This document shows positions 27,394 to 35,710 of a DNA stretch of 64,000 nucleotides, one piece after another. The first letter of the stretch is position 1, and every line of letters starts with the position of its first letter. The position numbers were made by a program, and so were the translations under genes. The stretch lies in NCBI RefSeq assembly GCF_000282595.1, contig NZ_AKIZ01000015.1, forward strand, positions 124,001 through 188,000, in the 5' to 3' direction. Below the pieces are notes generated by a model. The model had not been told where the DNA came from. It saw only the letters and a list, made by a program, of their open reading frames with translations, and did not search any database. The stretch is from Phyllobacterium sp. YR531 (lineage in GTDB: Bacteria; Pseudomonadota; Alphaproteobacteria; Rhizobiales; Rhizobiaceae).

Positions 27394-27638
27394 CGACGCT
27401 CTCCCGAGCCCAACCAAAAATGCAGGGCCAATGCGCTTCAAGGATCAAAACTTCTTGTCGCAGCATGGCAGCATTGGCTCGAACAGCGGTTGCAATCCAC
27501 TAGTAAATAATTTCTACTTATACGGGAGAAAATGGGAAACCATTCTACGAAACGCACGATCAAGATTGATAACATGAAAAATGATTATTTAAACCAGTAA
27601 GATACGACGAGATCTTACGCCAGCTTTTGGGAAATATC
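27394..27638. other. 245-nt promoter region of the OpuC-type operon
   Basis: AT-rich toward the right (27500-27600), with no open frame. Includes the 22-bp dyad at 27597-27618 immediately upstream of the binding-protein gene. No terminator for the preceding gene was found. Confidence 0.5.
27597..27618. promoter_or_regulatory. 22-bp dyad operator candidate before the OpuC-type operon
   Basis: GTAAGAT (27597-27603), 8-nt spacer, ATCTTAC (27612-27618) is a perfect inverted repeat 20 nt upstream of the first gene. Its spacing suits a dimeric regulator. No regulator gene is adjacent. Confidence 0.5.
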
Positions 27639-28520
27639 ATGATCTTGAAACGTATCGCCGCGCTTGGTCTTGGCGCACTTGTAACACTCGCTGGTGCGAG
27701 TGCCGGTTTTGCCCAAACGGTAAAGATCGGCAGCAAGAACTTCACTGAGCAGTTTGTCGTTGCGGAAATCTATGCGCAGGCTCTCGAGAAGGCCGGCGTC
27801 ACTGTTGAACGCCGTTTGAACCTTGGTGCGACGCTTATTGCGCACTCGGCTCTGACAAACGGTGAAATCGATCTTTATCCGGAATATACCGGTACGGCGC
27901 TGGCGTCCGTGGTCAAAGGTGACCTCTCTGGTTCTGCCGATAAAATCTACAAGGAAGTCAAGGATTTCTACGAGAAGAACCTGCAGCTGACCTTGCTTGA
28001 GCCAACAAAGATCAACAATGGCTATGCGATCATTACGCTTCCGGCAACAGCCGAGAAATACAAGCTCAAGACATTGACCGATCTTGGACCTGCTTCCAAA
28101 GAACTGTCCTTCGGTGCCGAAGGTGGTTTTGGCGAGCGCAAGGATGGATTGCCCGGCCTGAAGCAGACTTATGGCATTGAATTCAAGGATTTCCGTATTT
28201 TCGCCAAGCTTGGCATCCGTTACAGCGCGCTGACAAGCGGTAATATCGACGTGTCCTATGGTTTTAGCACGGATTGGCAGATTGCCGACAGTAAACTCGT
28301 CGTGCTTGATGACGACAAGCATCTTTTCCCACCCTATTACCTTGTGCCTGTAGTTCGTCAGGATACGCTTGCGAAGAACCCGAAGATTGCTGAAGTGCTC
28401 AACAAGATCAGCCCATTGCTGAACAATGAAAATATGCGAGATCTGAACGCTGCCGTTGAGCGGGATAAAAAGGAACCAAAGGAAGTCGCTGAAGAATTCC
28501 TGAAAGCCAACAATATCTAA
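27639..28520 (+). CDS. Quaternary-amine ABC importer, substrate-binding protein (OpuC/OsmF type)
   Basis: 293 residues from the ATG at 27639 with a Sec signal peptide (ASAGFA-Q, near residue 25). The mature start VKIGSKNFTEQFVVAEIY and GEIDLYPEYTGTAL are the signature of OpuAC/OsmF-type binding proteins, which bind trimethylammonium compounds such as glycine betaine, choline, carnitine or ergothioneine. First gene of an eight-gene operon. The ligand is not readable, but the catabolic genes downstream suggest a nitrogenous betaine that is degraded, not an osmoprotectant kept intact. Confidence 0.92.
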   Translation: MILKRIAALGLGALVTLAGASAGFAQTVKIGSKNFTEQFVVAEIYAQALEKAGVTVERRLNLGATLIAHSALTNGEIDLYPEYTGTALASVVKGDLSGSADKIYKEVKDFYEKNLQLTLLEPTKINNGYAIITLPATAEKYKLKTLTDLGPASKELSFGAEGGFGERKDGLPGLKQTYGIEFKDFRIFAKLGIRYSALTSGNIDVSYGFSTDWQIADSKLVVLDDDKHLFPPYYLVPVVRQDTLAKNPKIAEVLNKISPLLNNENMRDLNAAVERDKKEPKEVAEEFLKANNI

Positions 28521-28568
28521 GGGTTTCTAGCGGAACCAAAAGTTCCACTGACCATTCGATAAGAACCG

Positions 28569-28590
28569 GCGGAGATGATTGCATCTCCGC
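28569..28590 (+). promoter_or_regulatory. Intercistronic hairpin between binding protein and permease
   Basis: GCGGAGATG (28569-28577), loop ATTG, CATCTCCGC (28582-28590): a perfect 9-bp stem. No T-run follows, so it may stabilise the upstream message and keep the binding protein more abundant than the pore proteins. Confidence 0.6.
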
Positions 28591-28626
28591 TGTTTCATTA
28601 CAGAACCGGCGATACAGGACATTCCT

Positions 28627-29244
28627 TTGAATTGGGCTCCCAAAAATATCCCTGAAATACTGGCCGCAACATGGCAGCACCTGTTTCTGTCGGTCACTTC
28701 GGTGTTGATAGGGCTGGTAATTGCACTGGTGCTCGGCATCATCTGCGCCCGCCGCCAGAAGCTTTACGCTTTCGTGCTGACAATAACCGGCATAATCTTT
28801 GTCATCCCCAGCCTGGCATTATTTGCCTTGCTTATTCCGTGGCTCGGGCTTGGTACCAAACCTGCGCTTGTCGGCTTGTCTTCTTATTGTCTGCTCATCC
28901 TGTTGCGCAATGTCGTGACGGGGTTGCGTGGCGTTCCGGCCGATGTGCTGGATGCAGCGGATGGAATGGGCTACAGCGCCTGGCAAAGGCTGGTCCGTAT
29001 TGAATTACCCCTGGCAATGCCGCTTATTCTTTCCGGCATTCGAATTGCGCTCGTCACAGTAATCGGCATTGCAACGGTTGCTGCCTTCATTGATGGCGGC
29101 GGTCTGGGAACGATCATCCTGACCGGGATTGATCAGGAATATACCGAGAAGATTCTCGTTGGCGGCATATTGACGGCGCTCATGGCGACATTTTTCGATG
29201 TCGTTCTAAGCCAGGCTGAAAAACTGATGGCGAGGGGGCGGTGA
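28627..29244 (+). CDS. Quaternary-amine ABC importer, permease 1
   Basis: 205 residues with about five membrane helices and the binding-protein-dependent transport motif ADVLDAADGMGYSAWQRLVRIELPLA (landmark: DAADGMGYSAWQRL). No ATG exists near the start. The TTG at 28627 (CAGGAC 5-6 nt upstream) gives the family-like opening LNWAPKNIPEILAATW; a TTG at 28579 lies inside the intercistronic hairpin and is less likely. Forms the pore with permease 2. Confidence 0.9.
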   Translation: MNWAPKNIPEILAATWQHLFLSVTSVLIGLVIALVLGIICARRQKLYAFVLTITGIIFVIPSLALFALLIPWLGLGTKPALVGLSSYCLLILLRNVVTGLRGVPADVLDAADGMGYSAWQRLVRIELPLAMPLILSGIRIALVTVIGIATVAAFIDGGGLGTIILTGIDQEYTEKILVGGILTALMATFFDVVLSQAEKLMARGR

Positions 29245-29248
29245 CATC

Positions 29249-29890
29249 ATGTTAAGCACAGCCTTCACCTGGATTATTGAACATCAGCCCGAATTCTATC
29301 AGGCATTGGGTCGGCATCTCGTCATGTCGGGTGTTTCCCTTGCAATTGCACTTGCGATTGGATTGCCGCTGGCGATCCTGATCATCAATCGAAGCAATCT
29401 TGCCTTCACCGTTATCAATACGGTCAATGCGTTGCGAACGGTTCCGAGCCTCGCCATTCTGGCCATCATGATGCCTTTACTGGGTATCGGCCTCTGGCCT
29501 TCCATCGTTGCACTTACTGTTCTGGCTCTCCCGCCAATCCTGCTCAATGCCTTTATCGGTCTGCGCGACGTTGACGCGGACGCTGTTGAAGCGGCAATCG
29601 GGATGGGCATGAGCCGCGGGCAGGTATTGCGCAAAATCCGCATTCCGCTGGCTGCACCCGCCATGTTTGCCGGAGCACGCACAGCTGCCGTTCAGGTGCT
29701 TGCAGGCGCGACCTTGGCACCTTTCATTGGCGGCGGCGGGCTTGGCGATTTCATCGCGGTTGGCATCAGCATGATGGATATGTCACGCCTGCTTGTTGGC
29801 GCAATTCCAATCGCACTTCTGGCGCTGGGGACTGAATTCATCCTTGGCCTTGCCGAAAAAGTCTTCTTTTCAGAAAGATCTGCCGCATGA
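29249..29890 (+). CDS. Quaternary-amine ABC importer, permease 2
   Basis: 213 residues, five to six helices, with the coupling motif DAVEAAIGMGMSRGQVLRKI and the late LAPFIGGGGLGDFI typical of OpuCB/OpuCD-type permeases. GGGGCGG precedes the ATG, which lies 4 nt after the stop of permease 1. Overlaps the ATPase gene by 4 nt. Confidence 0.92.
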   Translation: MLSTAFTWIIEHQPEFYQALGRHLVMSGVSLAIALAIGLPLAILIINRSNLAFTVINTVNALRTVPSLAILAIMMPLLGIGLWPSIVALTVLALPPILLNAFIGLRDVDADAVEAAIGMGMSRGQVLRKIRIPLAAPAMFAGARTAAVQVLAGATLAPFIGGGGLGDFIAVGISMMDMSRLLVGAIPIALLALGTEFILGLAEKVFFSERSAA

Positions 29891-30819
29891 TCAATATGGA
29901 ACATGTCACGAAACGCTATACTGACGGCGGGCCTGCTTCGGTTGACGATCTGTCCATTGTCATACCCGAAGGAACCACGACAGCGCTCATTGGCCCATCA
30001 GGTTGCGGCAAGACCACGACAATGAGGATGATCAATCGTCTTATTGATCCCAGTGAAGGCAAGATCATCGTCAATGGCGAAGATGTGACCAAGGTCGATC
30101 CTGTGCAACTGCGCCGTCATATCGGGTATGTAATCCAGCAGGTCGGCCTGTTTCCGCACATGACCATAGCGCAGAATATTGCGGCGGTACCAAAACTCCT
30201 CGGCTGGGATGATGCGAAGATCAGGAGCCGGACGGAAGAACTGCTGCATCTGGTTGGTCTTGATCCCAAGGAAATGCTCAAGCGATACCCGCGCCAATTA
30301 TCGGGTGGACAACGGCAGCGTATTGGTGTTGCCCGCGCGTTGGCAGCTGACCCACCCGTGTTGCTGATGGACGAGCCCTTCGGAGCGATTGATCCGATCG
30401 CGCGCACAAGGCTGCAGGCCGAGTTCCGCCAGATATTGCAACGAGTAAAAAAGACGGTCGTACTGGTGACACATGACCTTGACGAAGCGATCAGGCTTGG
30501 CGATCGCATTGCTATTATGAAAGACGGCAAGATCATTCAATATGATACGCCAGACACAGTGCTGTCGCATCCGGCAGACGCTTTTGTCGAAAACTTCGTC
30601 GGTATAGACAGGGCGATCAAACGTCTTAGCCTGTTTACTGTCGGTGATGCCATGAATGGTGACGCACCAGCAAAGAATGCAAGCACAGTCGGGCAAACGA
30701 GTAATCTGCGCGATGCGCTGGCGCTGATGGTTGCCGCCAACAGCGACGTTCTTGCGGTGGTCGACCAGCATGGCACGGTGACGGGCAAGCTAACCCGTGA
30801 CGCCATTTTTTCGGTTTGA
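29887..30819 (+). CDS. Quaternary-amine ABC importer, ATPase (OpuCA/OsmV-like)
   Basis: 310 residues: Walker A GPSGCGKTT near residue 38, Q-loop, signature LSGGQRQRIGVARAL, Walker B VLLMDEPFGAID, then one C-terminal CBS-like domain (about residues 245-310, ending GTVTGKLTRDAIF). OpuCA proteins often have two CBS domains that sense ionic strength; a single short one here suggests weaker or absent osmotic control. The ATG overlaps the permease stop (ATGA). LLM gene 1 follows after 16 nt. Confidence 0.92.
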   Translation: MINMEHVTKRYTDGGPASVDDLSIVIPEGTTTALIGPSGCGKTTTMRMINRLIDPSEGKIIVNGEDVTKVDPVQLRRHIGYVIQQVGLFPHMTIAQNIAAVPKLLGWDDAKIRSRTEELLHLVGLDPKEMLKRYPRQLSGGQRQRIGVARALAADPPVLLMDEPFGAIDPIARTRLQAEFRQILQRVKKTVVLVTHDLDEAIRLGDRIAIMKDGKIIQYDTPDTVLSHPADAFVENFVGIDRAIKRLSLFTVGDAMNGDAPAKNASTVGQTSNLRDALALMVAANSDVLAVVDQHGTVTGKLTRDAIFSV

Positions 30820-30835
30820 TTCTCAAGGAAATGCA

Positions 30836-31906
30836 ATGATGCATCTTGGAATATCCATTACGCCATTCGGGCATCATCCCGGTGCTTGGCAAAAAAATGG
30901 ATCATCAAATTCGCTTCAGTTAAACCGGATTTCCCAGCAGGTAAAACAGGCGCAGGATGCAAAATTTGATTTTGCCCTTTTCGCAGACAATTCCGGAATC
31001 CGCCCTGTGGGAAATCTGACCACACAAGTGCCTTTCGAGCCAACGACTCTGATATCCGCACTGGCAACAGTGGCACATGAGATCGGATTGATCGCCAGCG
31101 CGGCAATCGACCAACACGAACCCTATAATCTCGCCCGCCGTTTTGCCTCGCTTGATACGATCAGTCACGGCCGGGCAGGGTGGAATCTGATTGCGTCCGC
31201 CTCTGTGCCAAAATCTGCCGAATATATCGATGTCGTCAGCGGATTGTGGGATAGCTGGGAGGATGATGCCTTCATATATGACAAGGCGAAGGGCCGTCTC
31301 TTTCTACCTGAGAAAATGCACGTCCTTGATCACGCGGGCGAAAACTTCACGGTTCGCGGGCCGCTCAATGTCAATCGATCCGAGCAAGGAAAACCCGTTA
31401 TTGCCACTTTGCTGCAGTCGCAGACACTGGAAATTGCAGCGCAAAAGGCTGAGGTTATTTTCATAGACGTGACCACGTCAGAGGAGCTGAAATCCAACCT
31501 GTCAGATTTGCAGCGGGCTTTTGATCGCAATGGTCGTAATCGACGTAATGTAAGGATTCTCGCGAATGTCGTACCTTACGTTAGCACGTCTGAAGCCGAC
31601 GCTAATAAACTTCGACAGGAGCTTGATGGTCTGGCAAGCAATGTCAGTCTCTCGGGCATCGAATTAATCGGTACAGCACAGACTATTGCTGACCATTTGG
31701 AAGAGTTGGCCGAACGGGTTGACGGCTTTACCATACTGCCTGCAATAGTGTCCGATGAGCGCGAGACGTTCGTTGAAAGTGTCATTCCGGAATTGCGCAA
31801 TCGCGGTCTGTTTCGCGACGATTACACGGGAAAAACCTTGCGGGATCATCTTGGTTTGCCAAGGCCGGCCCATCCGGCTGCCATTGCCCCGGAGCATTCA
31901 CTATGA
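30836..31906 (+). CDS. LLM-class flavin monooxygenase 1 (NtaA/SnaA/SoxA group, short)
   Basis: 356 residues from the ATG at 30836 (AAGGAA 6 nt upstream). The landmarks LASLDTISHGRAGWN (written RFASLDTISHGRAGWN) and the C-terminal FVESVIPELRNRGLF place it in the FMNH2-dependent monooxygenase group with nitrilotriacetate, EDTA and sulfone monooxygenases. It is about 80 residues shorter than its downstream partner and usual family members, mainly in the middle insertion, so the pair may have distinct substrates or form a heteromer. FMNH2 must come from a separate reductase. Confidence 0.88.
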   Translation: MMHLGISITPFGHHPGAWQKNGSSNSLQLNRISQQVKQAQDAKFDFALFADNSGIRPVGNLTTQVPFEPTTLISALATVAHEIGLIASAAIDQHEPYNLARRFASLDTISHGRAGWNLIASASVPKSAEYIDVVSGLWDSWEDDAFIYDKAKGRLFLPEKMHVLDHAGENFTVRGPLNVNRSEQGKPVIATLLQSQTLEIAAQKAEVIFIDVTTSEELKSNLSDLQRAFDRNGRNRRNVRILANVVPYVSTSEADANKLRQELDGLASNVSLSGIELIGTAQTIADHLEELAERVDGFTILPAIVSDERETFVESVIPELRNRGLFRDDYTGKTLRDHLGLPRPAHPAAIAPEHSL

Positions 31907-33228
31907 CCCCCAGAAACTCAGGCCAGATGAAACTGGGTGCCTTCCTTATGGCTGGCGGACACCACATCGCAGCTTGGCGGCATCCTGATGCTATTGCCGA
32001 TGCCGGTGTAAATATTGACCACTTCATCGAACTGACGCGCATGGCTGAAGCAGCAAAGTTTGACATGGTGTTTGTCGAGGACGCAGCAGCAATTCGCGAG
32101 CGCGACCCCAACCTTGCCAGTCAGGCGGCACGGTCGACAATGTTTGAACCGCTGTCTCTTCTGGCTGCACTCGCGGTGAATACATCGCATATCGGGCTGG
32201 TTGCCACGGCATCGACCACCTATAATGAACCCTATGGTCTGGCGCGGGCATTTGCCTCGCTGGATCAATTGAGCGGCGGGCGATCAGGCTGGAACCTCGT
32301 GACATCTGCCAGCGAACTCGAGGCCGAGAACTTTGTTTCCAGCGGATTGAGGCCGCACGCTCAACGCTATGAGCGCGCTGAAGAGTTTGCCGGTGCAGCG
32401 GTGGCCTTGTGGGATAGCGTGGATGAAGGCGCTTATCGTCTAAGTGATGGTGTTTATGCTGATCCGGACAAATTGCATCCGGTGGATCATAACGGCAAAC
32501 ATTTCACTGTAAGCGGCATACTCGACAGTCCGCGTTCGCCGCAGGGCCGTCCAGTGATGGTGCAGGCCGGGGCTTCTGACGCGGGCAAAAATTTGGCTGC
32601 CCGGACGGCTGATGTGGTTTTTACCGCCGCGCAAACTATCGAGGAAGCACAGGCTTATTATTCAGACCTGAAATCGCGGATGGTGGCGTTTGGGCGGCAG
32701 ACGGATGATCTGAAAATACTCCCGGGGGTCTCGCCGATTGTCGCCAATAGCGAAAGCGAGGCGAGGGCCAAGTATGAAGCGTTGCAGGACCTGATCCCCG
32801 ACGAGGTTGGTGTTGCACTTCTTGCCAGTTATTTGAGCATTAAAGACCTTTCGCAATACCCGCTTGATGGCCCTTTACCTGACATGCCTCCGACAGACGG
32901 TATTCAAAGCCGCCAGCAATTGATTATCGATCAGGCACGGCGGGAAAATCTGAATATCAGGCAATCAGCCCGCAAATTTGCCGGTGCACGTGGACACTGG
33001 CAATTGATCGGAACACCCAAGCAGATTGCGGATGAGCTGGAAGAGCGTTTCCGTGCCAAAGCTGCAGATGGATTCAACATCATGGCCCCATATTTTCCCG
33101 GCGCGCTGAAGGATTTTATCGAATTGGTTATGCCTGAACTTCGCCGCCGTGGTCTCTTCCGTGAAGAATACGAAGGCAAAACACTGCGTGAAAATCTGGG
33201 CATCAGAATTCCGGAGCGCGCCGCATGA
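31903..33228 (+). CDS. LLM-class flavin monooxygenase 2 (NtaA/SnaA/SoxA group)
   Basis: 441 residues, full family length. Opens MKLGAFLMAGGHHIAAWR, with FASLDQLSGGRSGWNLVTS in the flavin-binding region and PGALKDFIELVMPELRRRGLF at the C-terminus (landmarks: SGGRSGWNLVTS, VMPELRRRGLF). Family members oxidise C-N or C-S bonds of small acids using FMNH2 and O2. The ATG overlaps the stop of LLM 1 by 4 nt, and the OCD gene overlaps it in turn. Confidence 0.92.
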   Translation: MTPRNSGQMKLGAFLMAGGHHIAAWRHPDAIADAGVNIDHFIELTRMAEAAKFDMVFVEDAAAIRERDPNLASQAARSTMFEPLSLLAALAVNTSHIGLVATASTTYNEPYGLARAFASLDQLSGGRSGWNLVTSASELEAENFVSSGLRPHAQRYERAEEFAGAAVALWDSVDEGAYRLSDGVYADPDKLHPVDHNGKHFTVSGILDSPRSPQGRPVMVQAGASDAGKNLAARTADVVFTAAQTIEEAQAYYSDLKSRMVAFGRQTDDLKILPGVSPIVANSESEARAKYEALQDLIPDEVGVALLASYLSIKDLSQYPLDGPLPDMPPTDGIQSRQQLIIDQARRENLNIRQSARKFAGARGHWQLIGTPKQIADELEERFRAKAADGFNIMAPYFPGALKDFIELVMPELRRRGLFREEYEGKTLRENLGIRIPERAA

Positions 33229-34244
33229 GCAAAGAAAACAACATGAAACCCGTTTATATTGACTATTTGAACGCATTCGATATCGAAGCGCTGGCGTTGA
33301 CCGATGCGGAAGTTCTTAGTGCCATCGAGAAGTCGCTTGCCGCACAAGGTAACAACCAGACCGTAATCGAGCCCCGCGTACATCTTGAACCCGATGCAAG
33401 TTTTAATGGTCATTTCAATGTGTTGCGCGGGTATGTTGCGCCATTGGATTTGGCTGGCGTCAAGATTGTTGGCGATTTTGTCGACAACTACAAACAGAAC
33501 TATCCGTCCGAATTCGGCGTGCTGAACCTGTTTGACCCACGCACCGGCGTTCCGCGTGCGATCATTGATGCCACGGCCATTACGGATATGCGGACAGGTG
33601 CAATCACAGCCTTGGGCGCAAAGCATCTGGCGCGAAAGAACTCAAAAATACTCGGCCATATCGGCGCGCGTGGCACTGCGTACTGGAATGTGCGGCTGCT
33701 TAATCATCTTTATGATTTCGACGAGATCAGAGTGCATTCCCGCCGCCCCGAAAGCCGCGAAGCTTTTGCCGAAAAACTGTCAAATGATCTGGGTAAAAAG
33801 ATCATCGTCACCGATGATTGGCGCAGTTGCATTGAAGGTGCCGACATCGTTGTTGAAGCATCGCGATTGCCGTCACCTGAGCCGATGTTGAAAACCGCGT
33901 GGATCAAGCCGGGAGCTTTTGTCGTGCCTTATGGCACAATGAGTGCCGTTGAATTGTCTTTGACTGACATCATGGACAAACTGGTCGTGGATGATTGGGG
34001 GCAATGCAAGGGCGGCAAGTTCGGTTCGCTCCGCGCGCACGTGGAAGCCGGAAAGCTCTCCGAACAGACACTCCATGCGGAACTGGGCCAGATCGTTGCC
34101 GGGCACAAGTCTGGCCGAGAGAGCGATAACGAAACCATCCTTTTCTGGCACCGTGGCTTGTCATTGAGCGACATTGCGCTCGGCTATGCCATGCTTGAGA
34201 AAGCCAAAGCAGCCAATATCGGCCAGCGATTGCGGTTTGCATGA
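33225..34244 (+). CDS. Ornithine cyclodeaminase / mu-crystallin family protein
   Basis: 339 residues. NAD(P)-binding Rossmann part with HIGARGTAYWNVRLL near residue 143, DATAITDMRTGA before it and SRRPESREAFAEKL after it, as in OCD/mu-crystallin enzymes, which interconvert cyclic imines, amino acids and keto acids. The canonical GxGxQA is changed to GARGTAY, so cofactor use may differ. The ATG overlaps the LLM 2 stop; an in-frame ATG at 33243 is an alternative. In context it may process an imine or amino acid released by the lyase or monooxygenases. Confidence 0.88.
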   Translation: MSKENNMKPVYIDYLNAFDIEALALTDAEVLSAIEKSLAAQGNNQTVIEPRVHLEPDASFNGHFNVLRGYVAPLDLAGVKIVGDFVDNYKQNYPSEFGVLNLFDPRTGVPRAIIDATAITDMRTGAITALGAKHLARKNSKILGHIGARGTAYWNVRLLNHLYDFDEIRVHSRRPESREAFAEKLSNDLGKKIIVTDDWRSCIEGADIVVEASRLPSPEPMLKTAWIKPGAFVVPYGTMSAVELSLTDIMDKLVVDDWGQCKGGKFGSLRAHVEAGKLSEQTLHAELGQIVAGHKSGRESDNETILFWHRGLSLSDIALGYAMLEKAKAANIGQRLRFA

Positions 34245-35710
34245 CCGTAACTTTTGGCCATGGACCTGTCAGCATCGCAAATATTGCGGATATTGCGCGC
34301 AAGAACGTCGTTGTTGACGTTGCGACTGAAGCATATGCGCGGTTGGAGAAAGCCCGAACCATACTCGATCGCGCTGCCGCTTCAGGCCAGCAGATTTACG
34401 GCCTGAACACTGGTCTTGGTGCCAATCTCAAAACATCCGTCAGCAGTGACATAGCCGGGTTTCAGCAGCAGTTGATACGCGGCCGCGGTATGGGAACGGG
34501 ACCATCTATGTCCCGGGAATTGACGCGTGCGATTATGGCGACACGGCTGTCAATGCTAACGGCGGGAGGCTCAGGCATTTCGCCAAACGTATTTAATGAT
34601 TTGCTCAATCTGTTGAACAGGCAGGTTCATCCGGTCATGCCTTCGATAGGATCGATTGGAGCAGGGGATCTCGTGCTCTTGTCGGCGCTTGCCCAAAGCC
34701 TGATAGGTGAAGGCAGCGCGGAATATCAGGGAGTGATTCATCCGGCAGGTCAGGCGCTGCAACTTGCGGGACTTGCACCCTCGCAACTTGGTCCAAAGGA
34801 TGGACTTTCATTGCTCAATGCTTCTGCCGTATCGGTTGGGCAAGGTGCACTTGCGGTCGTTGATGCATTGGCTTTGTTTGATTTTCAGCGTCAGGCTGCT
34901 GCCTTGAGTTTTGAAGGTTTGAGCGGAAATCCGCTAATTCTTGTACCCGCACTGCAACGCGCACGACCTGCCGCCGGTCAAATAGAAGAAGCCGAAAAGC
35001 TTGCGGCGCTACTGGATGGATCAGCACTGTTTACGGCAAAATCCGCCATACAGGATCCCTTAAGCCTGCGTTGCATCCCTTCTATCCATGGCGCATTGGC
35101 CTCGGCATTGAAGGATGCCAGACTCGCGATAGAAATCGAACTTAACGCCGCGGCTGACAATCCCTTGGTGATTATTGAAGAAGAGCGTGTGCTTTCAACC
35201 GGCAATTTTCATACCCCCGCATTGGCTTTGGCGTTCGAGACATTGGGCCTCGCCATAGCGCAAGCCGCAGCGGTCAGTGCTGCGCGATTCATTCAGCTAA
35301 CCGGATCGTCACGCAATGGTCTTCCAAAATATCTTACGCCTGTCGGCGGTGCATCGGCAGGCTTCATCCCATTGCAAAAGACAGTCGTAGCGTTGCTTGC
35401 AGCCATCCGCCACAAAGCCAATCCCGTCATGCTGGATTTCCTGCCGGTTTCGGAAGGCGTTGAAGACCATGCTACCCAATCGCCTCTGGCAGTCGCCAAA
35501 TGCGCTGACTCGATCGACCTGTGGCGCCAGATCGTGGCTTGCGAACTGCTGGCTGCGGCACAGGCAGTCGATCTAAAGCCCGGACACAGCTGCGGGACAG
35601 GTACCTTGAAGGTACATCAGTTCGTGCGCAACTCTTCAGCTCAATTGATCGAAGACCGGGCGCTTAGCGACGATCTCTCCAAACTCGCCTGTTCAATGAT
35701 TCAGAGCTGA
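34241..35710 (+). CDS. HAL/PAL-superfamily lyase lacking the MIO serine (candidate betaine lyase)
   Basis: 489 residues with clear histidine-ammonia-lyase architecture: IYGLNTGLG with Y53, GLSLLNASAVSVGQGAL, SLRCIPSIHGA and VEDHATQSPLAV. The cofactor-forming Ala-Ser-Gly is not present: where family members read GSVGASGDL, this protein reads GSIGAGDL (A141-G142), with the serine deleted. The active-site tyrosine of QDPYSLRC is Leu274. Without MIO, loss of ammonia from free histidine is unlikely, but elimination of trimethylamine from a betaine, as done by ergothionase, needs no electrophilic cofactor. Last gene of the operon; ATGA overlap with OCD. Confidence 0.88.
   Translation: MTVTFGHGPVSIANIADIARKNVVVDVATEAYARLEKARTILDRAAASGQQIYGLNTGLGANLKTSVSSDIAGFQQQLIRGRGMGTGPSMSRELTRAIMATRLSMLTAGGSGISPNVFNDLLNLLNRQVHPVMPSIGSIGAGDLVLLSALAQSLIGEGSAEYQGVIHPAGQALQLAGLAPSQLGPKDGLSLLNASAVSVGQGALAVVDALALFDFQRQAAALSFEGLSGNPLILVPALQRARPAAGQIEEAEKLAALLDGSALFTAKSAIQDPLSLRCIPSIHGALASALKDARLAIEIELNAAADNPLVIIEEERVLSTGNFHTPALALAFETLGLAIAQAAAVSAARFIQLTGSSRNGLPKYLTPVGGASAGFIPLQKTVVALLAAIRHKANPVMLDFLPVSEGVEDHATQSPLAVAKCADSIDLWRQIVACELLAAAQAVDLKPGHSCGTGTLKVHQFVRNSSAQLIEDRALSDDLSKLACSMIQS

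Follow-up and report, generated by a model that had tools for sequence, protein, structure and literature searches.

Ergothionase, described from Treponema denticola (structure 6s7j) and Burkholderia, is to our knowledge the only member of the histidine ammonia-lyase (HAL, histidase) family that has a known reaction and lacks the 4-methylideneimidazole-5-one (MIO) electrophile. Other described systems resemble further parts of the locus reported here. HutXWV-HutH2 of Sinorhizobium is reportedly a betaine-type ATP-binding cassette (ABC) importer adjoining a HAL-like gene, and EgtU, an importer protein that binds ergothioneine, is a fused chain. NtfO1-NtfO2 and StmO1-StmO2 are adjacent pairs of luciferase-like monooxygenases (LLM) that serve polyketide biosynthesis in actinobacteria, and SbnB and the archaeal alanine dehydrogenase share the ornithine cyclodeaminase (OCD) fold. 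The window analyzed here is a 64,000-nucleotide stretch of the 5.0 Mb draft genome of Phyllobacterium sp. YR531 (contig NZ_AKIZ01000015.1, positions 124,001 to 188,000). It contains eight consecutive plus-strand genes (27639-35710) for a binding protein, two permeases, an ATPase, two LLM proteins (LLM1 and LLM2), an OCD enzyme, and a lyase of HAL fold. Like HutXWV-HutH2, the locus sets a betaine-type importer next to a HAL-like gene, but the transporter and lyase families are different.

We moderately favor the reading that these genes form an operon for the breakdown of a betaine, an amino acid with an alpha-trimethylammonium group, that is not ergothioneine. The literature searched, which lacked most subscription journals, contained no description of such a gene set. 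The genes, and three sites within the lyase gene, are as follows.

27639..28520, plus strand: OpuAC/OpuC-type periplasmic substrate-binding protein with an apparent signal peptide (PF04069, 231 bits)
28579..29244, plus strand: permease A (PF00528, BPD_transp_1)
29249..29890, plus strand: permease B (PF00528, BPD_transp_1)
29887..30819, plus strand: OpuCA/ProV-type ATPase (TIGR01186, 337.5 bits, cut-off 326.6)
30836..31906, plus strand: LLM1, degenerate luciferase-like subunit (TIGR03860, 301 bits, cut-off 279.7)
31903..33228, plus strand: LLM2, catalytic subunit of an NtaA/DmoA-family monooxygenase dependent on flavin mononucleotide (FMN) (TIGR03860, 541 bits, cut-off 279.7)
33225..34244, plus strand: OCD/mu-crystallin (SbnB-like) NAD-type enzyme (PF02423, 177.5 bits, cut-off 24)
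34241..35710, plus strand: MIO-less lyase, Arg-type, HAL fold (PF00221, 449 bits)
34481..34486, plus strand: Gly81-Arg82 of the lyase, replacing Ser82-His83 of Pseudomonas putida histidase (alignment)
34649..34672, plus strand: GSIGAGDL codons, site of the lost MIO-forming Ala-Ser-Gly (one-residue deletion; alignment)
35378..35380, plus strand: Lys380 (LQKT), a lysine found in MIO-less lyases where histidase has Val (alignment)

An earlier sequence-only reading of this DNA had described eight plus-strand genes in a row with 4-nt overlaps at 29887, 31903, 33225, and 34241. A check of open reading frames and family models agrees with the row, and all four overlaps are real. That reading had begun the binding protein at 27597, where an in-frame GTG is also open; ATG 27639 is instead the probable start, and the overlaps stand. 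Permease A more likely starts at TTG 28627, which gives 205 aa, a frequent length among its orthologs, and LLM1 probably starts at ATG 30836. No flavin reductase was noticed beside the operon; the genome itself was not searched for one.

Conservation of the eight-gene unit

Conservation of gene order had been chosen beforehand as a test able to refute the earlier proposal, and the order is kept. The lyase occurs in 19 of 20 genomes of the genus, including that of the window, and all eight genes stand in order at each of the 18 further Phyllobacterium loci retrieved, with a DUF427 gene between the ATPase and LLM1 in 10 of them. A scan for the lyase among Rhizobiales genome contigs in GTDB returned 97 loci, from which the best 80 were kept; at least four genomes are common to this set and the Phyllobacterium set. 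All 80 have an OCD gene immediately 5' of the lyase. The complete order is present in 18 (Phyllobacterium, Rhizobium, and Neorhizobium types) and is interrupted by a contig end in one (L008), while the OCD-lyase pair stands alone in 61, mostly Mesorhizobium, some of these stretches reaching less than 5 kb upstream. The whole order was also found on three plasmid records, one with an additional DUF427 gene. Because the order is whole in 18/18 Phyllobacterium and 18/80 Rhizobiales loci, the unit is beyond chance; four transporter genes by themselves would be ordinary. In a set of 40 related loci, which includes four genomes twice, gene overlaps of 4 nt recur at the permease B-ATPase (37), LLM1-LLM2 (37), LLM2-OCD (24), and OCD-lyase (40) junctions. 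Conserved order and recurring overlaps bear out the earlier claim that importer and enzymes form one unit.

Among 151 genomes of the family, the lyase (E up to 1e-130) occurs in six, LLM2 (E up to 1e-190) in three, all of them within 3 kb of the lyase, and the binding protein (E up to 1e-110) in six, three from Phyllobacterium and three from two other genera. One locus from another genus (L155) has all eight gene types in rearranged order, with a lyase of 42% identity and an LLM pair about 2.6 kb from it, separated by unrelated genes.

Opposite the OCD-lyase pair, desaturase/hydroxylase-like and PanB-like genes occur at Mesorhizobium-type loci and on a Rhodobacteraceae plasmid (L098:11757-14711 and L039:5144-8239). 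The PanB-like gene scores below the panB cut-off, and the arrangement hints at yet another route.

The MIO-less lyase and its relatives

The GSIGA-GDL segment of the window lyase aligns with GSVGASGDL of histidase, and the MIO-forming Ala-Ser-Gly motif is absent from 80 of 80 orthologs (SIGA-GDL in 76, SIGD-SDL in 4). The description of the lyase as MIO-less in the sequence-only reading was therefore correct. As in ergothionase, a HAL fold is combined with loss of MIO through a one-residue deletion, identical to that of the T. denticola enzyme, and equivalents of Glu414 and Arg283 are kept. The lysine of the QK motif is conserved as well (QKT in 79 orthologs, HKT in one). The window lyase differs from ergothionase at the position of histidase residues 82-83, where all 80 orthologs have Gly-Arg, Arg replacing a His83 that is kept in the T. 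denticola, Polaromonas, and Burkholderia rows. It also differs in its partners, which are OCD, LLM, and OpuC genes, not thiourocanate hydratase. Ergothionase 6s7j is its best sequence match in the PDB (258.7 bits), ahead of Thermoplasma histidase (246.7 bits) and the P. putida histidase forms (220-225 bits), and the proposed kinship with ergothionase is thereby upheld. A structure model (predicted template modeling score 0.84) matches the HAL fold.

That fold, the 27-29% identity to structures of histidine and tyrosine ammonia-lyases, and the annotation of plasmid relatives as histidine ammonia-lyase are what one would expect of a conventional histidine or tyrosine ammonia-lyase accompanied by a transporter. 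We consider this explanation scarcely credible given the loss of the MIO motif in every ortholog and a hutH model score of 379.9 bits against a cut-off of 539.15; a canonical HutH (609 bits) and HutU are encoded elsewhere in the genome. An ordinary histidase was rejected at the sequence level on these grounds.

Phylogenetic placement separates the lyase from both histidases and ergothionases. An unrooted tree of 48 chosen proteins, made by a quick method with the motif columns excluded, places 10 MIO histidases on one side of a branch (Shimodaira-Hasegawa-like approximate likelihood ratio test, SH-aLRT, 93) and 38 MIO-less rows on the other; being unrooted and quickly made, it does not prove a single loss of MIO. 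Clustering with active histidases had been named as a result that could overturn the earlier proposal, and the lyase does not group with the MIO histidases. An ergothionase group (SH-aLRT 100), all with His83, unites T. denticola, Polaromonas, Sinorhizobium meliloti pSymA, Paracoccus, Burkholderia arboris, and Paraburkholderia. The window lyase belongs to a separate group of 30 rows (SH-aLRT 97), 28 of which have Arg at the His83 position and two of which (L135 and L150) have His. Another His-type lyase (L138) falls outside both groups.

Several relatives differ in their surroundings or form. A HutH2-like protein annotated as histidase (L097:4917-6410) has lost the MIO motif through a different, longer deletion, forms a long branch beside the histidases on the tree, and adjoins a HutXWV-like importer. 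Ergothionase-group lyases of Burkholderia and Paraburkholderia (L091:8884-10503 and L104:12088-13731) have an apparent N-terminal signal peptide, with starts chosen by script, and therefore may act in the periplasm. The MIO-less lyase of S. meliloti pSymA (L089:8866-13849) lies close to a gene of the dimethylsulfoniopropionate-lyase family (PF16867) and an ABC importer. A second Mesorhizobium MIO-less lyase (L135:8956-14618) is accompanied by an aminotransferase and, as judged by eye, alcohol and aldehyde dehydrogenases, with no OCD match within the stretch.

Importer, monooxygenase pair, and OCD enzyme

An OpuAC protein, two permeases, a ProV-type ATPase, and cage residues identify the importer as an OpuC-type quaternary-ammonium system. 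The binding protein was aligned with 32 of 41 relatives (33 sequences, some genomes present twice; nine with miscalled starts were left out). Residues were mapped by motif on AfProX numbering and on the EgtU residues of PMC9732360; no EgtU sequence was aligned. The carboxylate residues Lys, Thr, and Arg and the cage residues Tyr, Asn, Tyr, and Tyr are invariant (33/33), and the fourth cage position is Phe. These residues agree with the claim of the sequence-only reading that the importer recognizes a trimethylammonium compound. EgtUC is among the PDB relatives of the binding protein, and the cage and the carboxylate-binding Lys, Thr, and Arg are features shared with EgtU. Unlike EgtU, the window protein is separate from its two permeases, and Gly244, Phe293, and Glu375 of EgtU are replaced by Phe (33/33), Tyr (33/33), and Gly (32, with Thr in one). 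According to PMC9732360, the substitution G244F lowers EgtU affinity about 100-fold and E375Q about 400-fold.

LLM2 has its best PDB match in chain B of 7e36 (NtfO2). According to PMC8027225, this is the subunit that binds FMN in the NtfO1-NtfO2 heterodimer; FMN was docked there and its contacts tested by mutants. Seven of the eight contacts are kept in 8/8 LLM2 rows, the exception being Ala58, which is Glu. Most of the site, with its FMN-phosphate residues, is lost from LLM1: in a chosen sample of 12 rows, His151 and Tyr155 are missing from all, Thr133 from 11, and Gln203 from 8. LLM1 is also the fastest-evolving gene of the unit, with a median identity across the 18 Phyllobacterium loci of 55.5%, against 82.8% for LLM2, 89.4% for the OCD enzyme, and 71.5% for the lyase. 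Faster change of O1 than of O2 is likewise reported for the NtfO/StmO pair in PMC8027225. From the lost FMN site, the fast evolution of LLM1, and the asymmetry of NtfO1-NtfO2, LLM1 and LLM2 most likely make up one heterodimeric monooxygenase, where two monooxygenases had previously been proposed. Like the NtfO and StmO pairs, they are adjacent, with a conserved partner holding the FMN site and a fast-evolving one.

No enzyme of the unit is better conserved than OCD, with about 73% identity among the window, Rhizobium johnstonii, and Polaromonas; the R. johnstonii lyase is 42% identical to that of the window. This OCD occurs (E up to 1e-60) in 20 of 297 genomes of the order, and at least 14 of the 20, which are not independent, have a histidase-family gene no more than 10 kb away. 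Ten neighbors of OCD copies with no nearby lyase (L137, L142-L145), read by eye only, gave no clue. The motifs VVDDWxQC and LHAELGQ are common to the OCD enzyme and 4m54, which we take to be SbnB, an enzyme of oxidative C-N cleavage. Met239 aligns pairwise with a position of alanine dehydrogenase (1vll/1omo), next to a gap, that presumably holds the catalytic Asp. Unlike its fold relatives SbnB and alanine dehydrogenase, the window enzyme scores low on curated models (132/327 and 190/409 bits). Its structure model had a mean pLDDT (predicted local distance difference test) of 41.9 and was not used.

Candidate substrates and proposed route

Ergothioneine had been put forward as a substrate in the sequence-only reading, and its known route, ergothionase followed by thiourocanate hydratase, would account for the best PDB match of the lyase, the shared MIO-loop deletion, and an OpuC-type binding protein related to EgtUC. 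We nevertheless regard import and breakdown of ergothioneine as very unlikely, because the lyase falls outside the ergothionase group, Arg replaces His83 throughout, the three EgtU residues are missing, and no gene of the genome exceeds the thiourocanate hydratase cut-off. The best gene in that search was the canonical HutU (681 of 930 bits), and none of 14 control genomes had a gene over the cut-off either, while the B. arboris protein passed. In B. arboris, a thiourocanate hydratase gene (1050 bits, cut-off 930) precedes the lyase at a distance of 1.4 kb, as expected for an ergothionase. EgtD had no match in the window genome; one of the 14 controls matched, and none was over the cut-off. 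The window route appears to be a sister to the established pathway of ergothioneine degradation, acting on a different compound.

As a first and tentative guess at the substrate, we name a histidine-derived betaine: hercynine, or an oxidized ergothioneine whose acidic group would pair with Arg82. At a Paraburkholderia locus, the order OCD, canonical urocanate hydratase, MIO-less lyase suggests hercynine. Another genome (L138:8246-12382) has genes for EgtB (582 bits) and EgtD (386 bits), which together make ergothioneine, after a His-type MIO-less lyase gene of the same strand; the lyase may act on ergothioneine or hercynine. The presence of the OCD enzyme in a histidine-utilization cluster and beside urocanate hydratase is a weak pointer to an imidazole-type substrate. 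Beside Arg-type sister lyases, HutC-type repressors are encoded in R. johnstonii (279 bits) and Martelella (267 bits; TIGR02018 cut-off 220). The OCD and HutC contexts thus lean toward imidazole compounds, and the Gly-Arg pair leans toward a changed, perhaps acidic, side chain.

Other genes at the sister loci bear on the compound less directly. The R. johnstonii and Martelella loci also carry OpuC importers and PhnD-like proteins, and that of R. johnstonii has a YeiH-like exporter gene, below the cut-off of its model. By eye and similarity, two Rhizobiales sisters (L140, L146) have a peptide-type ABC importer instead of OpuC, and a further locus (L148) has two additional ABC ATPase matches. 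Elsewhere (L083:10465-11265, L084:12615-13433, L088:12694-13530), the gene after OCD or lyase encodes a PhnD-like (PF12974) protein of about 270 aa; these proteins have no obvious signal peptide and may be enzymes with a binding-protein fold. A search of the window genome with the R. johnstonii PhnD-like protein, run without a positive control, found no match.

A betaine with no imidazole ring, such as tryptophan or tyrosine betaine, would instead yield an aryl acrylate for oxidation or chain shortening dependent on coenzyme A (CoA). Both compounds occur in legume seeds, the hosts are plant-associated, the selectivity pair has changed to Gly-Arg, and the R. johnstonii sister locus adds genes for a CoA-transferase, a short-chain dehydrogenase/reductase, and MaoC. 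The window operon, however, has no CoA genes, Arg is not obviously suited to indole or phenol rings, and the HutC-type repressors at two sister loci and the OCD gene in a hut cluster suggest urocanate-like products. We judge such a substrate unlikely.

Several observations weigh against the favored reading. Apart from the HutC ones, the histidine-betaine contexts all belong to His-type lyases, and the R. johnstonii and Martelella repressors (235 and 225 bits) fall below the 424 cut-off of a second HutC model. As judged from alignment, the change of His83 to Arg argues for a different side chain. By fold alone, Thermoplasma histidase scores as high as ergothionase. The OCD enzyme is also encoded in a Comamonadaceae hut cluster with a MIO histidase (L099), and Rhodococcus (L101) has a partially matching gene close to another MIO histidase; the enzyme is thus not tied to MIO-less chemistry. 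Three of the six family genomes with the lyase have no LLM2 at E up to 1e-190. One locus (L154) has the importer, LLM pair, and an FAH-type hydratase with no lyase or OCD gene, another (L156) has the importer and an FAH-type hydratase only, and in Mesorhizobium the stretch examined around the OCD-lyase pair lacks OpuC and LLM genes. Both FAH-type hydratases score below all curated cut-offs.

The eight-gene unit is therefore real but modular in build, and its modules need not share one substrate. Two unrelated modules could have been joined, the importer and LLM pair serving one betaine, such as an N-methylpyridinium acid, and the OCD enzyme and lyase another compound, as the two hydratase loci and the solitary Mesorhizobium pair would allow. 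This seems improbable in view of the 4-nt overlaps that join LLM2, OCD, and lyase genes in the window and many relatives, the order kept throughout Phyllobacterium, and the presence of all eight types, otherwise arranged, in L155.

For the favored operon of non-ergothioneine betaine catabolism, the importer would grip the trimethylammonium group through its Tyr/Phe cage and bind the carboxylate through Lys47, Thr100, and Arg181. In the cell, the lyase would expel an amine, presumably trimethylamine, by beta-elimination to leave an unsaturated acid; a quaternary amine leaves readily by itself, so a MIO electrophile would not be needed. Supplied with reduced FMN by a reductase whose gene lies elsewhere, the LLM1-LLM2 heterodimer would oxidize the compound or its product, and the OCD enzyme would act on a C-N bond in an NAD(P)-linked step. 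The order of these steps is the one we infer.

More speculatively, the Arg-type MIO-less lyases could be a large unnamed family, annotated as hutH, that opens undescribed betaine routes other than that of ergothioneine. The substrate of the window clade would then be acidic (for example, hercynine-2-sulfonate or -sulfinate) and the LLM pair would cleave C-S, with the OCD enzyme serving several routes. The locus suggests that a second MIO-less family, larger than the ergothionases and tied to betaine importers, exists in plant-associated bacteria. Its OCD partner ranges from Rhizobiales to Burkholderiales and Streptomyces, and the locus provides a testable set of enzymes and candidate substrates. 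If the proposed route is true, it would be an unrecognized source of trimethylamine in soil and a means by which root bacteria exchange nutrients with plants or fungi.

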